This document shows positions 16,820 to 25,204 of a DNA stretch of 64,000 bases, one piece after another; within the stretch, counting starts at the first letter, position 1; every line of letters begins with the position of its first letter. The DNA is taken from NCBI GenBank assembly GCA_001770775.1, contig MESA01000028.1, positions 1-64,000 on the forward strand, read 5' to 3'. A program made the translations under genes and the position numbers. This DNA is from Burkholderiales bacterium RIFCSPHIGHO2_12_FULL_63_20. GTDB lineage: Bacteria; Pseudomonadota; Gammaproteobacteria; Burkholderiales; Burkholderiaceae_C. A model generated the notes under the pieces. It saw only the letters and a list, made by a program, of their open reading frames with translations, searched no databases and was not told the DNA's origin.

Positions 16820-17016
16820 CCAAGCTTCCAGAGTGGCGTGAGGCTGCCCAACGTCACCAGAGCGACCCTCGGGCCACGCCAGCATACATCCGACCGGGCG
16901 GCGCAGGCATCGGTACAAGGCACAGGTGCGTGCTCGCCGCTACAATATGCGGGTTGGCGCCAGGTTTGGGTGCGCCCTGTACAACAGGTAAGAAGCGTAG
17001 AAAGGCAGATCCGGTT

Positions 17017-17064
17017 ATGACACCGCGAACTTCGACCACTTCCTCTACCTCGACCGAGGTCTAG
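17017..17064 (+). CDS. Thr-rich leader peptide [15 protein letters not shown] upstream of thrS
   Basis: 6 Thr among 15 residues, directly upstream of an antiterminator/terminator pair and thrS. Confidence 0.75.
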
Positions 17065-17103
17065 TCGGCTGGCCGCTGCTTTCGTCTTCCTGTTGTCATT
17101 CAG

Positions 17104-17130
17104 AAAGCGCGGCGTCCACCGCGCTTTTTT
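17104..17130 (+). terminator. Attenuator terminator in the thrS leader
   Basis: AAAGCGCGG-CGTCCA-CCGCGCTTT 9-bp stem ending in a T6 tract, before thrS ATG 17184. Confidence 0.85.
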
Positions 17131-17183
17131 CATGTCCCTCGCGGCCTGGCTGCGGGCGCACTCCAGATACTGAAGGTTCCCTC

Positions 17184-19103
17184 ATGATTTCCATCCAATT
17201 GCCCGACGGCTCCAAGCGTGAATTTCCAGGCCCCGTGACCGTGGCCGAAGTGGCCGCGTCCATCGGTGCCGGTCTGGCCAAAGCCGCGCTGGCGGGTCGG
17301 GTCGGCCGGGGCGAAGCCGCCCGCCTGGTGGACACCAGCTACCGCATCGAGGCGGACGAGTCCCTGGCCATCGTCACCGAGAAGGATGCCGACGGTCTGG
17401 ACGTGATCCGTCACTCCACCGCCCACTTGCTGGCCTATGCCGTCAAGGAGCTGTTCCCCGAGGCGCAGGTCACCATCGGCCCCACCATCGAAGACGGCTT
17501 CTATTACGACTTCGCCTACAAGCGCCCCTTCACGCCCGAAGACCTGCAGGCCATCGAAAAGAAGATGGCCGAACTGGCTAAGAAGGACGAGAAGGTCGAG
17601 CGCAAGGTGCTGCCCCGTGACGAGGCGGTGAGCTATTTCAAGGGCCTGGGCGAGCACTACAAGGCCGAGATCATCGAAAGCATCCCGGCCGATCAGGACG
17701 TGTCGCTTTACAGCGAGGGCGCCTTCACCGACCTGTGCCGCGGCCCCCACGTGCCCAGCACTGGCAAGCTCAAGCACTTCAAGCTGATGAAGGTGGCTGG
17801 CGCCTACTGGCGTGGCGACCACCGCAACGAGCAGTTGCAGCGCGTGTACGGCACTGCCTGGACGACCAAGGAAGACCTCGCCCAGTACCTGCACCGCCTG
17901 GAAGAAGCCGAGAAGCGCGACCACCGCAAGCTGGGCCGCGAACTCGACCTGTTCCACATCGACGACCACGCACCCGGTGTCGTGTTCTGGCATCCCAAGG
18001 GCTGGACCGTCTGGCAGGCCGTGGAGCAGTACATGCGCCAGGTTTACCGCGACAACGGCTACCAGGAGGTCAAGGGCCCACAGATCATCGACAAGACCCT
18101 GTGGGAGAAGACCGGTCACTGGGACAAGTACCGCGACCACATGTTCACCACCGAGTCGGAAAAGCGCGACTACGCGCTCAAGCCGATGAACTGCCCCGGC
18201 CATATCCTGATCTTCAATCAGGGCATCAAGAGCTACCGCGACCTGCCAGTTCGCTACGGTGAGTTCGGCCAGTGCCACCGCAACGAGCCCTCGGGCGGCC
18301 TGCACGGCATCATGCGCGTGCGCGGCTTCACGCAGGACGACGGTCACGTCTTCTGTACCGAAGACCAGATCCTGCCTGAGTGCGTGGACTTCACGGCGCT
18401 GCTGCAAAAAGTCTACAAGGACTTCGGCTTCACCGACATCATCTACAAGGTCGCCACGCGCCCTGAGGCCCGCATTGGCTCGGACGAAGTCTGGGACAAG
18501 GCCGAGCAGGCGCTGATGGAAAGCTTGCGCGCCACGGGCAGTGAGTTCACCATCGCGGTGGGCGATGGCGCTTTCTACGGCCCCAAGATTGAGTACACGC
18601 TGAAGGACGCGCTGGGCCGCCACTGGCAGTGCGGCACCATCCAGGTCGACTTCTCCATGCCGCAGCGCCTGAACGCGGAATACGTGGCCGACACCAGCGA
18701 GCGCAAGCACCCGGTCATGCTGCACCGCGCCATCCTCGGCTCGCTCGAGCGCTTCATCGGCATCCTGATCGAGCAGCACGCCGGGGCCTTGCCCGTGTGG
18801 CTGGCGCCCGAGCAGGTGGTGGTGCTCAACATCACCGATGCACAGGCTGATTACGCGCAAGAGATTGCCAAAACGCTGCAGAAGCAGGGCTTGCGCGTTC
18901 AGTTGGATTTGCGCAACGAGAAGATCACGTATAAAATCCGCGAGCACTCGATGCAGAAGGTGCCGTACTTTATCGTTGTCGGTGACAAGGAGAAGGCTGA
19001 CGGCACCATCGCCGTGCGCGCCCGGGGTAACCAGAACCTCGGTGTGATGTCACTCGACGACTTCTCCCAGAAGATCTCTCAAGACATCGCCAGCAAGGCC
19101 TGA
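17184..19103 (+). CDS. thrS: Threonine--tRNA ligase
   Basis: TGS domain start [91 protein letters not shown]. Confidence 0.97.
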
Positions 19104-20583: not shown

Positions 20584-20613
20584 AAAGGCCAACCGTGTGT
20601 TGGCCTTTTTTTT
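20584..20613 (+). terminator. Intrinsic terminator or attenuator between rplT and pheS
   Basis: AAAGGCCAAC-CGTGT-GTTGGCCTTT with T8 tract, 12 nt before pheS ATG. Confidence 0.8.
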
Positions 20614-20625
20614 CGACACAAGACA

Positions 20626-21663
20626 ATGAACGATCTCGACGCACTGGTTCTGTCCGCCCAAGAGGCTTTCTCTGCCGCCACGACCCCGGCCGACCTGGAG
20701 AACGCCAAGGCGCGCTTCCTGGGCAAGTCTGGCAGCGTGACCGAGCTGCTCAAGGGCATGGGGGCACTCACTCCCGAAGAGAAGAAGACCCGTGGCGCCG
20801 CGATCAACCAGGCCAAGCAGCGGGTCGAGGCTGCGCTCACCGAGCGCCGTCAGGCCCTGTTGGATGCCGAACTGGCGCAGCAATTGCGCGCCGAGAGCTT
20901 GGACGTGACCCTGCCGGGTCGCCGTCGCGGTGAAGGCGGTCTGCACCCGGTTTCGCTGAGCATTGAGCGCATCGAAGGCATCTTCGGCTCGATGGGTTTT
21001 GCTGTGGCCGATGGACCGGAAATCGAGACCGACTGGTTCAACTTCACGGCCCTCAACACGCCGGAAGACCACCCTGCGCGCTCCATGCACGACACCTTTT
21101 ATGTGGACGGCGGTCACCTGCTGCGCACGCACACCAGCCCGATGCAGGTGCGCTACGCCGTGCAGCACGTCCAGCGTCACGCCCAGGCCATGGCCCAGGG
21201 CGAGCGCATGCCCGATCTGCGCGTGATCGCGCCGGGCCGCACCTACCGTGTGGACAGCGATGCCACGCACTCGCCCATGTTCCACCAGTGCGAAGGCCTG
21301 TGGATTGGCGAGAACGTCAGCTTCACCGACCTGAAGGCCATGTTGGGAGACTTCTTCAGCACCTTCTTCGAGACCGACGAGCTGGACATCCGCTTCCGTC
21401 CGTCCTTCTTCCCCTTCACCGAGCCTTCGGCCGAGGTGGACATCGCTTTCGCGTCGGGTCCGCTCAAGGGCCGCTGGCTGGAAGTGGGCGGGGCAGGGCA
21501 GGTGCACCCGAACGTGGTGCGCAATTACGGCCTGGACCCTGAGCACTACATCGGTTTCGCGTTCGGCCTGGGCCCGGATCGCCTGACCATGCTGCGCTAT
21601 GGCGTCAACGACCTGCGCCTGTTCTTCGAAGGCGATCTGCGCTTCCTGCAGCAGTTCCAGTGA
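20626..21663 (+). CDS. pheS: Phenylalanine--tRNA ligase alpha subunit
   Basis: [56 protein letters not shown]. Confidence 0.97.
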
Positions 21664-21673
21664 GGGACACGCC

Positions 21674-22705
21674 ATGAGTACCGCCACACCGATCCGAGCT
21701 TGGGCTGCGCAGGCCTTGAACCAGCCTGTGGTGCCGTTCTCTTACGACCCCGGTCCCTTGGGGGCGGAAGACGTCGAGATCCGCGTCGAGCATTGCGGCC
21801 TGTGTCACTCTGACCTGTCGGTGATCGACGGCGAATGGGGCCCGGCCGCCTATCCCGTCGTGGGTGGGCACGAGGTCATCGGCACCGTGGTGGCTCTGGG
21901 TACCCAGGCGCGTGGCCTGAAGTTGGGCCAGCGTGTGGGTCTGGGCTGGATGAGTGGCAGTTGCATGGCCTGTGCGTCTTGCCTGAGCGGGCAACCGCAG
22001 ATGTGCCGTGCCGGCGTGCCCACGATCATCGGGCACCACGGTGGCTTTGCCGAGCGCGTGCGTGCGCACTGGCTGTGGGTGGCGCCGATTCCCGAGGGGC
22101 TGGATCCGCAGGATGCCGGCCCGCTGCTGTGCGGCGGTGTGACGGTCTTTTCGCCTTTCCTGAATTTCGACATCAAGCCGACGCACCATGTGGGCGTGGT
22201 GGGCATCGGCGGCCTGGGTCACCTGGCCTTGCAGTTTGCTCGGGCATGGGGCTGCGAGGTCACGGCCTTCACGTCCAGCGATTCCAAGCGCGACGAAGCC
22301 TTGCAGATGGGCGCGCATCATGTGGTCTCCAGCGTGGATGCGGCTGCCATGAAGGCCCTGCGCGGTCGCCTCGATATGGTGCTGGTCACCGTGAACGTGA
22401 TGCTCAACTGGAAAGCCTTGATGAGCACGCTGGCGCCCAATGGCCGCCTGCACCTGGTGGGCGTGCTGCCTCAGCCCATGGAGGTCGAGGCCGGCCCGCT
22501 GATCGGTGGCCAGCGCAGTGTGTCGGGCTCGCCCACGGGGTCGCGCCAGGACATCGACACCATGCTGGCGTTCGCGGCCCGCCATGGCATCAAGCCGCAA
22601 ACCGAACATTTTCCGATGAGCCGCCTCAACGATGCGCTGGATCACCTGCGCGCAGGCAAGGCTCGATACCGTGTGGTGCTGGACGCGGATTTCGAGCAGG
22701 CCTGA
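21674..22705 (+). CDS. Zinc-dependent alcohol dehydrogenase / aldehyde reductase (Ahr/YjgB-like MDR)
   Basis: VEHCGLCHSDLSVIDGEWGPAAYPVVGGHEVIGTVVALG; CMACASCLSGQPQMC structural zinc motif; GVVGIGGLGHLALQFARAWGCEV. Confidence 0.88.
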   Translation: MSTATPIRAWAAQALNQPVVPFSYDPGPLGAEDVEIRVEHCGLCHSDLSVIDGEWGPAAYPVVGGHEVIGTVVALGTQARGLKLGQRVGLGWMSGSCMACASCLSGQPQMCRAGVPTIIGHHGGFAERVRAHWLWVAPIPEGLDPQDAGPLLCGGVTVFSPFLNFDIKPTHHVGVVGIGGLGHLALQFARAWGCEVTAFTSSDSKRDEALQMGAHHVVSSVDAAAMKALRGRLDMVLVTVNVMLNWKALMSTLAPNGRLHLVGVLPQPMEVEAGPLIGGQRSVSGSPTGSRQDIDTMLAFAARHGIKPQTEHFPMSRLNDALDHLRAGKARYRVVLDADFEQA

Positions 22706-22774: not shown

Positions 22775-25204
22775 ATGCAATTCCCCGAGTCCTGGCTGCG
22801 CAGTTTCTGCAACCCCGACCTGAGCACCCAGCAACTGGCTGACCTGCTGACCATGGCCGGTCTGGAAGTGGAAGAGCTGCAACCCGTGGCCCCGGCATTC
22901 ACGGGTGTGGTGGTGGCGCAGGTGCTGGAAGTGGCCAAGCACCCGGATGCCGACCGCCTGAACGTGTGCAAGGTGGACGCGGGCACCGGCGAGGTGCTGC
23001 AGATCGTTTGCGGTGCCCCCAATGTGCGCCCGGGCATCAAGATTCCGTGTGCCACGGTGGGGGCCGAACTGCCTCCGGGCGCCGATGGCAAGGTCTTCAA
23101 GATCAAGCTGGGCAAGCTGCGCGGGGTCGAGAGCCAGGGCATGCTGTGCTCTGCCCGTGAACTGGGCGTCTCGGAAGAGTCCAACGGCCTGCACATCCTG
23201 GCCGAGGACGCGCCCATCGGCGTGAACATCCGTGAGCACCTCAAGCTTGACGACACCCTGTTCACCCTCAAGCTCACCCCCAATCTGGCACATTGCCTGA
23301 GCGTGGCCGGCATCGCCCGCGAGGTCTCGGCCTTGACCGGTGCGCCGCTGACCCTGCCGAGCATCGAGTCGGTTAAGCCGGGTGTCGATGCGGCGCTGAA
23401 GGTCACCGTGCAGGCGCCCGAGCTGTGTGGTCGCTTTGCCGGCCGCGTCATCCAGGGCGTCAATCCGCAGGCGGCGACGCCTGATTGGATGGTCGAACGC
23501 CTGGCGCGTTGCGGCCAGCGTCCTGTGTCGGCGCTGGTCGACATCTCCAACTACGTGATGTTCGAGCTAGGTCAGCCTTCGCACGTGTTCGACCTGGACA
23601 AGATCCAGGGCGAGTTGCAGGTGCGCTGGGCGCAGCCTGGTGAAACGCTCAAGCTGCTCAACGGCAACACCGTGACCCTGGACGAACAGGTCGGCGTGAT
23701 CGCTGCGGGCGCCCAGGTCGAGTCACTGGCCGGCATCATGGGCGGGGACGAGACCGCCGTGGGTGACGACACCCGCAACGTCTACCTGGAAGCCGCCTTC
23801 TGGTGGCCCAAGGCGATTGCCGGGCGTGCCCGCCGATACAACTTCTCGACCGATGCGTCGCACCGGTTCGAGCGGGGCGTGGACCCGGCGCCTACCGTGC
23901 AGTATCTCGAGCGAATCACCCAGCTGATCCTCGACATCTGCGGTGGCCAGGCCGGTGCGGTGGATGATCAGGTGGTCAAGGCAGTCGAGCGCAAGCCGGT
24001 GACCTTGCGACTGTCGCGTGCGCAGCGTGTGATCGGCATGCCGGTCACGCTGACCGAGTGCCAGACCGTGCTCCATCGCCTGGGCCTGCCTTACAGCACG
24101 GTCGCGCGCGGTGGGGACACCGACCTCATCGTGACGCCGCCGAGCTGGCGCTTCGACCTGCAGATCGAGGAAGACCTGATCGAAGAAGTGGTGCGCGTGA
24201 TCGGCTTTGACAAGCTGCCCAAGCGTGCGCCTCTGGCTCCCGTGACCCCCTTGGTGCTGCCGGAAGCGCGTCGCAGCCTGCACACGGTCCGTCATGAGGT
24301 CGCCGCGCGCGGCTACCAGGAAGTCATCACCTTCAGTTTCGTGGAAGAGCGCTGGGAAGCAGATTTTGCCGGCAACACCCAACCCATCCGCGTGCTCAAC
24401 CCGATTGCCAGCCCATTGTCCGTGATGCGCTCGACGCTGATTGGCAGCCTGGTCGAGGTGCTCAAGACCAACCTGTCGCGCAAGGCCGAGCGCGTGCGCC
24501 TGTTTGAAGTGGGCCGCGTGTTCAAGCGCGACGCGACGGTGCCCGACAGCAACCTGACTGTGGCCGGCTTTGACCAACCCGTGCGGGTGAGCGGTCTGGC
24601 CTACGGCCCCGCCGATGCCCTGCAGTGGGGTGCCGCGGCGCGCAACGTCGATTTCTTCGATGTGAAGGGTGATGTCGAGGCGCTGCTGGCGCCGCGTCAG
24701 GCCATGTTTGTCGCGGCCGAACATCCTGCCTTCCACCCGGGTCGTTGTGCCCAGGTGCTGGTGGCAGGGCAGCCGGTGGGTTTCGTGGGTGAACTGCACC
24801 CGAAGTGGCGTCAGGCCTACGACCTGCCTTTGGCGCCGGTGCTGTTTGAATTGGATGCCAGCGTGCTGAGTCAGCGTGTGGTGCCGGCCTTCCAGTCGGT
24901 GCCGCGCATGCAGTCGGTGTACCGTGATCTGGCCCTGGTGGTCAGCGACACCACGGCCCACGATGCCGTGATTGGTGCCATCACACAGGCCGCGACCGAT
25001 GGCCTGGTGCGTGGCGCGCGCCTGTTCGACATTTACAAGCCCAAGACCCCGGTGGCGGGCATGGCCGAGCAAGAGCGCAGCCTGGCCGTGAGGGTGGAGT
25101 TGCGTGACGACGAGCAGACCTTGACCGACGAACGCATCGACGCGGCCATGCAGGCGGTGTTGGCGGCGGTGGGCTCGGCAGTGGGTGCGCGCGTTCGCGC
25201 TTGA
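22775..25204 (+). CDS. pheT: Phenylalanine--tRNA ligase beta subunit
   Basis: [35 protein letters not shown]...[15 protein letters not shown]...[12 protein letters not shown]. Confidence 0.97.

Follow-up and report, generated by a model that had tools for sequence, protein, structure and literature searches.

A putative threonine attenuator upstream of the threonyl-tRNA synthetase gene thrS in Burkholderiales

The window, i.e., the whole stretch of 64,000 nucleotides that was analyzed, carries at positions 17184-19103 of the + strand the gene of threonyl-tRNA synthetase (ThrRS), thrS, identified by the NCBIfam thrS equivalog TIGR00418 (E 5e-221, 735 bits), which is the gene regulated in the model discussed below. 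The closest named relatives of its product are found in Roseateles and Rubrivivax (85% identity), and thrS heads the usual cluster thrS-infC-(rpmI)-rplT-pheS, where rpmI is presumed. Further along the cluster, an aldehyde reductase Ahr-like gene (21674-22705; NCBIfam NF047908, 560 bits) is located between pheS (20626-21663) and pheT (22775-25204), two genes that are normally adjacent. A terminator-like hairpin, AAAGGCCAAC-CGTGT-GTTGGCCTTT, followed by a T-run, is present between rplT and pheS (20586-20612). The equivalent position in E. coli harbors the pheM attenuator, whereas inspection of the hairpin site before pheS revealed no short ORF rich in Phe.

Upstream of thrS, a -10-like box TACAAT (16941-16946, +) is the presumed promoter of a leader transcript; judging by the position of this box, about 65 nt would separate the transcription start from the leader ORF. 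In 42/66 relatives, a box of the type TA[ACG]AAT precedes the leader ATG by no more than 110 nt, vs. 1.9 ± 1.4 in shuffled sequences. The leader ORF itself (17017-17064, +) has 15 codons, six of them for Thr and four for Ser, between the ATG at 17017 and the stop codon TAG at 17062-17064; every coordinate and base given for it in the initial annotation was verified. A hairpin ACCTC-GACC-GAGGT, located within the 3' end of the ORF, is indeed present at 17047-17060 (+) but, according to folding and comparison within the genus, it is a genus-level feature and dispensable for a general mechanism.

Leaders of the window type were recovered at 109 thrS loci, gathered from genome relatives, from 80 named GTDB loci via the ThrRS protein, and via the leader motif alone. 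Where the 17-18-base leader motif was the only search criterion, thrS was found downstream at 57/57 tested loci. The conserved layout consists of the SD GAGAAAGGC, GGTTATGACACCGCGAAC, a variable peptide, a terminator and thrS, and leader ORF, SD and terminator are kept upstream of thrS both within the genus and in named Burkholderiales. With two mismatches or fewer, the motif is present in 203/251 genomes of the family, a number that includes some chance matches according to a reversed-pattern control; with one mismatch or fewer, it is present in 35/300 genomes of the GTDB order, and outside the order it was found in 0/194 sampled genomes of the class. Looser leaders, with an R-T-x-T core and starts other than MTPRT, can be found in Neisseriales, Ralstonia and Caballeronia, and an Alcaligenaceae genome (L073) has an R-T-T ORF. 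A lack of conservation of the Thr-rich ORF or of the antiterminator pairing had been named beforehand in the initial annotation as a possible refutation; both are kept in relatives. Many deeper Betaproteobacteria (L021, L022, L023, L027, L103 and others) carry a gene for Val-tRNA, its anticodon read by eye as GAC, immediately before thrS; a terminator-like hairpin often comes after this gene, whether or not a Thr leader is present.

The composition of the variable part of the peptide was analyzed in 67 non-redundant leaders. Beyond the invariant MTPRT (codons 1-5), Thr accounts for 135/571 codons (24%), as compared with 7/504 (1.4%) and 17/504 (3.4%) in the other two frames of the same leaders and with 41 ± 6 Thr codons, 57 at most, when the bases are shuffled. 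Thr is thus the commonest residue of this part, Ser coming next with 63. Among 22 leaders with dissimilar variable parts, 43/191 codons are for Thr, the two remaining frames having 5 and 6. This enrichment is specific to the reading frame and therefore points to selection on Thr codons in that frame. An SD-like motif is found at -20 to -5 of the leader ATG in 61/66 leaders, and the ORF is predicted to be translated. The ORF is conserved in the 109 leaders, but richness in Thr is not universal: individual leaders have between 2 and 9 Thr, and 13/67 have only two, both inside the invariant start (Thr2 and Thr5).

The invariant part, MTPRT, is kept at the nucleotide level. In 55 leaders from loci gathered via the ThrRS protein and then picked by motif pattern, codons 2-4 are ACA, CCG and CGA in 54/55, 55/55 and 52/55 cases, respectively, and hardly any change, synonymous ones included, is observed over 17017-17030. 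The attenuation model does not fully account for this constancy. It is conceivable, if unlikely, that the invariant ATGACACCGCGAAC start is more than a Thr counter, providing either a second input, for which nascent-peptide pausing, pausing at the CGA codon and sequestration of the start codon in a small hairpin are candidates, or a function in trans of the leader RNA or peptide once released. Another reading is that the MTPRT start with its CGA codon causes a ribosome pause that reflects not uncharged tRNA-Thr but, e.g., a general slowdown of translation, Arg or Pro supply, or a ligand, the pause being read by the same antiterminator/terminator switch. The near-constant ACA CCG CGA and the 13 leaders devoid of Thr beyond Thr2 and Thr5 would fit such a sensor of translation rate or nascent peptide; yet no other residue of the variable part comes close to Thr in number, the enrichment is frame-specific, the controlled gene is thrS, and relatives hold the R-T-x-T core despite other starts (MFKRTTTTRTSR, MKHWRTTTTRHSHAS, MIQAPRTTTASERQ, MQRTSTKTITYLG), all of which makes this explanation improbable.

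Downstream of the ORF, three segments with alternative pairings can be distinguished by sequence and folding. Segment 2, the 5' arm of the antiterminator (GCCGC-T-GCTTTC, 17072-17083, +), begins 7 nt past the stop codon; segment 3, GAAAGCGCGGC (17103-17113, +), serves both as the 3' arm of the antiterminator and as the 5' arm of the terminator; and the intrinsic terminator, formed by segments 3 and 4 and a T-run (AAAGCGCGG-CGTCCA-CCGCGCTTT, 17104-17130, +), is identified by folding and comparison. As initially annotated, the antiterminator consists of 5 + 6 pairs with one bulged T, and the positions of the terminator and of the thrS start at 17184 agree with the sequence. By folding and comparison, antiterminator and terminator are mutually exclusive through their common segment 3, with energies of -17.5 kcal/mol for the former and -15.4 kcal/mol for the latter (17103-17130). 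The terminator hairpin and its T-run follow the ORF in 109 leaders; an identical search did not find them after the ORF in L040. A generic terminator scan retrieved a shorter version of the hairpin only, and such sites were not overrepresented in the region. The possibility that this is the terminator of the upstream gene was rejected, since the T-run belongs to the + strand and that gene is encoded on the opposite one.

In the window, the antiterminator duplex has an energy of -21.0 vs. -14.4 for dinucleotide shuffles, and the window alone is modest evidence because p is about 0.03. Over the 67 non-redundant relatives, the mean antiterminator energy is -15.7 vs. -12.5 kcal/mol for shuffled sequences (standard deviation of the shuffled mean 0.33), and the native value of -15.7 compares with -14.6 ± 0.30 when the arms are swapped between species; in a strict subset, the swap test gives P 0.003. 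In 73% of leaders, as compared with 34% of shuffles, the distance from the first stop-codon base to the start of the antiterminator arm is 0-5 nt, and in several clades the arm includes the stop codon (TAGTCG). The pair beside the conserved core varies between C-G, A-T and T-A, and base-by-base covariation around the CGCGG core is clearly significant at the first flanking position only.

Folding also reveals a further pairing, in which segment 1, the SD region of the leader (GTAGAAAGGCAG, 16985-17008, +), forms a 1:2 helix with 17076-17092 when no ribosome is present. In a transcript ending at 17100, the pair probabilities of this helix are about 0.5-0.99; its formation removes segment 2 from the antiterminator and hides the leader SD. 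In 67 leaders, the region from -30 to the leader end pairs with the post-stop segment at -25.7 vs. -21.6 ± 0.36 for shuffled sequences. The swap test gives -20.0 for native pairs vs. -18.0 ± 0.34 in 78 leaders, with P 0.26 in the 21 most dissimilar ones. The helix can be drawn in relatives of quite different sequence, e.g., L010 (GAGAAAGGCAATC with GATTGCTTTTCTC) and L107 (TTGGAGTATT with AATACTCCAA). When codons 4 to the end were paired alone with segment 2, no excess was observed; segment 1 is therefore assigned to the region of the SD and start codon, and not to the distal control codons. Absent from the initial annotation, the 1:2 helix is likely part of the switch, according to these folding models.

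The effect of a translating ribosome was modeled as the gap between antiterminated and terminated folds in three states, with the ribosome stalled at codon 5, positioned at the stop codon, or absent, assuming a footprint that extends 12 nt past the A-site codon. In 79 leaders, passing from stall to stop favors the terminator by a further 4.7 kcal/mol, vs. 0.67 for shuffled post-stop segments (P about 1e-12), and 86% of these leaders exceed their own shuffles; in 22 dissimilar leaders, the switch amounts to 5.8 vs. 1.1 kcal/mol (P 3e-5). Because the leaders share ancestry, the P values given here overstate independence. For the window, the terminator is favored by 1.8 (stalled), 8.1 (at the stop) and 10.8 kcal/mol (no ribosome). 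A stall at the Thr codons is thus predicted to tip the balance toward the antiterminator, and a ribosome at the stop codon, or none, to favor the terminator. At equilibrium, nearly all leaders still favor the terminator when the ribosome is stalled, by a mean of +7.4 kcal/mol, and we therefore infer that antitermination must rest on segments 2 and 3 pairing first. Chance was also considered as an explanation and was rejected on the basis of the shuffle, swap and three-state tests over relatives.

Taken with the modeled states, these elements very probably constitute a classical ribosome-mediated attenuator with four segments, in which transcription of thrS would be controlled by charged tRNA-Thr. 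When Thr-tRNA is scarce, the ribosome would stall in the Thr codons and keep segment 1 unpaired; with segment 1 blocked, segment 2 (17072-17083) would be free for segment 3 (17103-17113), no terminator would form and thrS would be transcribed. When Thr-tRNA is plentiful, a ribosome reaching the stop codon at 17062 would cover the 5' half of segment 2, which would allow 3:4 pairing and stop transcription near 17130. Without translation of the leader, the SD region would pair with segment 2 and the terminator would also form. The transcription start, the footprint positions, the response to Thr-tRNA and actual termination are predictions of this scheme. The initial annotation had proposed ribosome-mediated attenuation, and this proposal is supported by the comparison, as ORF and antiterminator are conserved and the stop codon sits just before the antiterminator arm.

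The leader has been lost in some relatives. L009, from the same genus, lacks the SD of the leader and its Thr codons as well as the arm of the antiterminator, and keeps the terminator; the joint loss of ORF and antiterminator supports both being one device. The same locus keeps a hairpin ACCTC-GCGC-GAGGT. In several other Burkholderiales relatives, mostly Comamonadaceae (L041, L044, L048, L050, L057 and L058), a promoter-like box is closely followed by a terminator-like hairpin right before thrS, without leader ORF.

Two other explanations do without leader translation as the sensor or without thrS as the main target, and both are very unlikely. ThrRS could bind a tRNA-like structure of the leader, the short ORF being incidental, and the leader RNA is structured and such operator mimicry is established for E. 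coli thrS; but the element comprises an ORF with frame-specific Thr enrichment together with a transcription terminator, and no hairpin with a Thr-anticodon-like loop was seen by eye in the leader. That the terminated short leader RNA acts mainly in trans, as an sRNA or through its peptide, with thrS expressed by constitutive leakage, would agree with the nucleotide-level invariance around the start codon, as in a base-pairing sRNA, and attenuator leader RNAs with a second role in trans are known (rnTrpL), but hardly with the coupling of the motif to thrS at every locus tested or with an antiterminator that is kept between species and needless for a trans-only role.

Attenuation by ribosome position, the reading preferred here, has well-known precedents of the trp/phe type, and the thrS element appears to possess most of the features that can be tested computationally. 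In the E. coli pheST attenuator, the pheM leader peptide is rich in the cognate residue and terminator and antiterminator compete. The thrS element resembles it by its synthetase gene, cognate-residue leader and competing folds; unlike it, pheM senses Phe and precedes pheS at the other end of the cluster, whereas a Thr leader precedes thrS here. The enterobacterial thr leader (Rfam Thr_leader, RF00506) likewise combines a terminator with a peptide whose codons include Thr, but controls thrABC biosynthesis, whereas the window element precedes thrS. The T-box leaders of Firmicute thrS also attenuate transcription of this gene in response to uncharged tRNA-Thr; T-box RNA binds the tRNA directly, whereas the window element would read leader translation in the proposed model. 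In E. coli, the same gene is subject to operator mimicry, i.e., translational repression by ThrRS itself, without leader ORF or terminator. Regarding Rfam, no match was obtained at the leader at gathering score, and relaxing the E threshold to 5 gave none in the region either; T-box and Thr_leader (RF00506) were each rejected, with no covariance model match in the leader region. No description of a Burkholderiales thrS leader was found in the literature searched, although an earlier prediction is possible, e.g., in the survey of attenuation of synthetase genes reportedly made by Lopatovskaya et al. in 2010. Leader peptides before a synthetase gene have been predicted computationally for hisS in Bacilli, and the main text of that study leaves thrS unmentioned and names threonyl-tRNA synthetase for E. 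coli only (Naville and Gautheret, 2010; PMC2965389). Those leaders concern His and Firmicutes, whereas the thrS leader described here concerns Thr and Burkholderiales.

A Thr attenuator before thrS seems to have spread through Burkholderiales, a large order that comprises numerous species from the environment, from plants and from the clinic. With about a hundred natural variants available, it could be asked what minimum of control codons, two in some leaders, is sufficient; there are also lineages without leader that retain the terminator. If the model is true, a new Rfam family would be justified for the thrS leader. Control of thrS differs among bacteria, with operator mimicry in E. coli and the T-box in Firmicutes, and Burkholderiales would then represent a third solution for this gene, namely ribosome-mediated attenuation.
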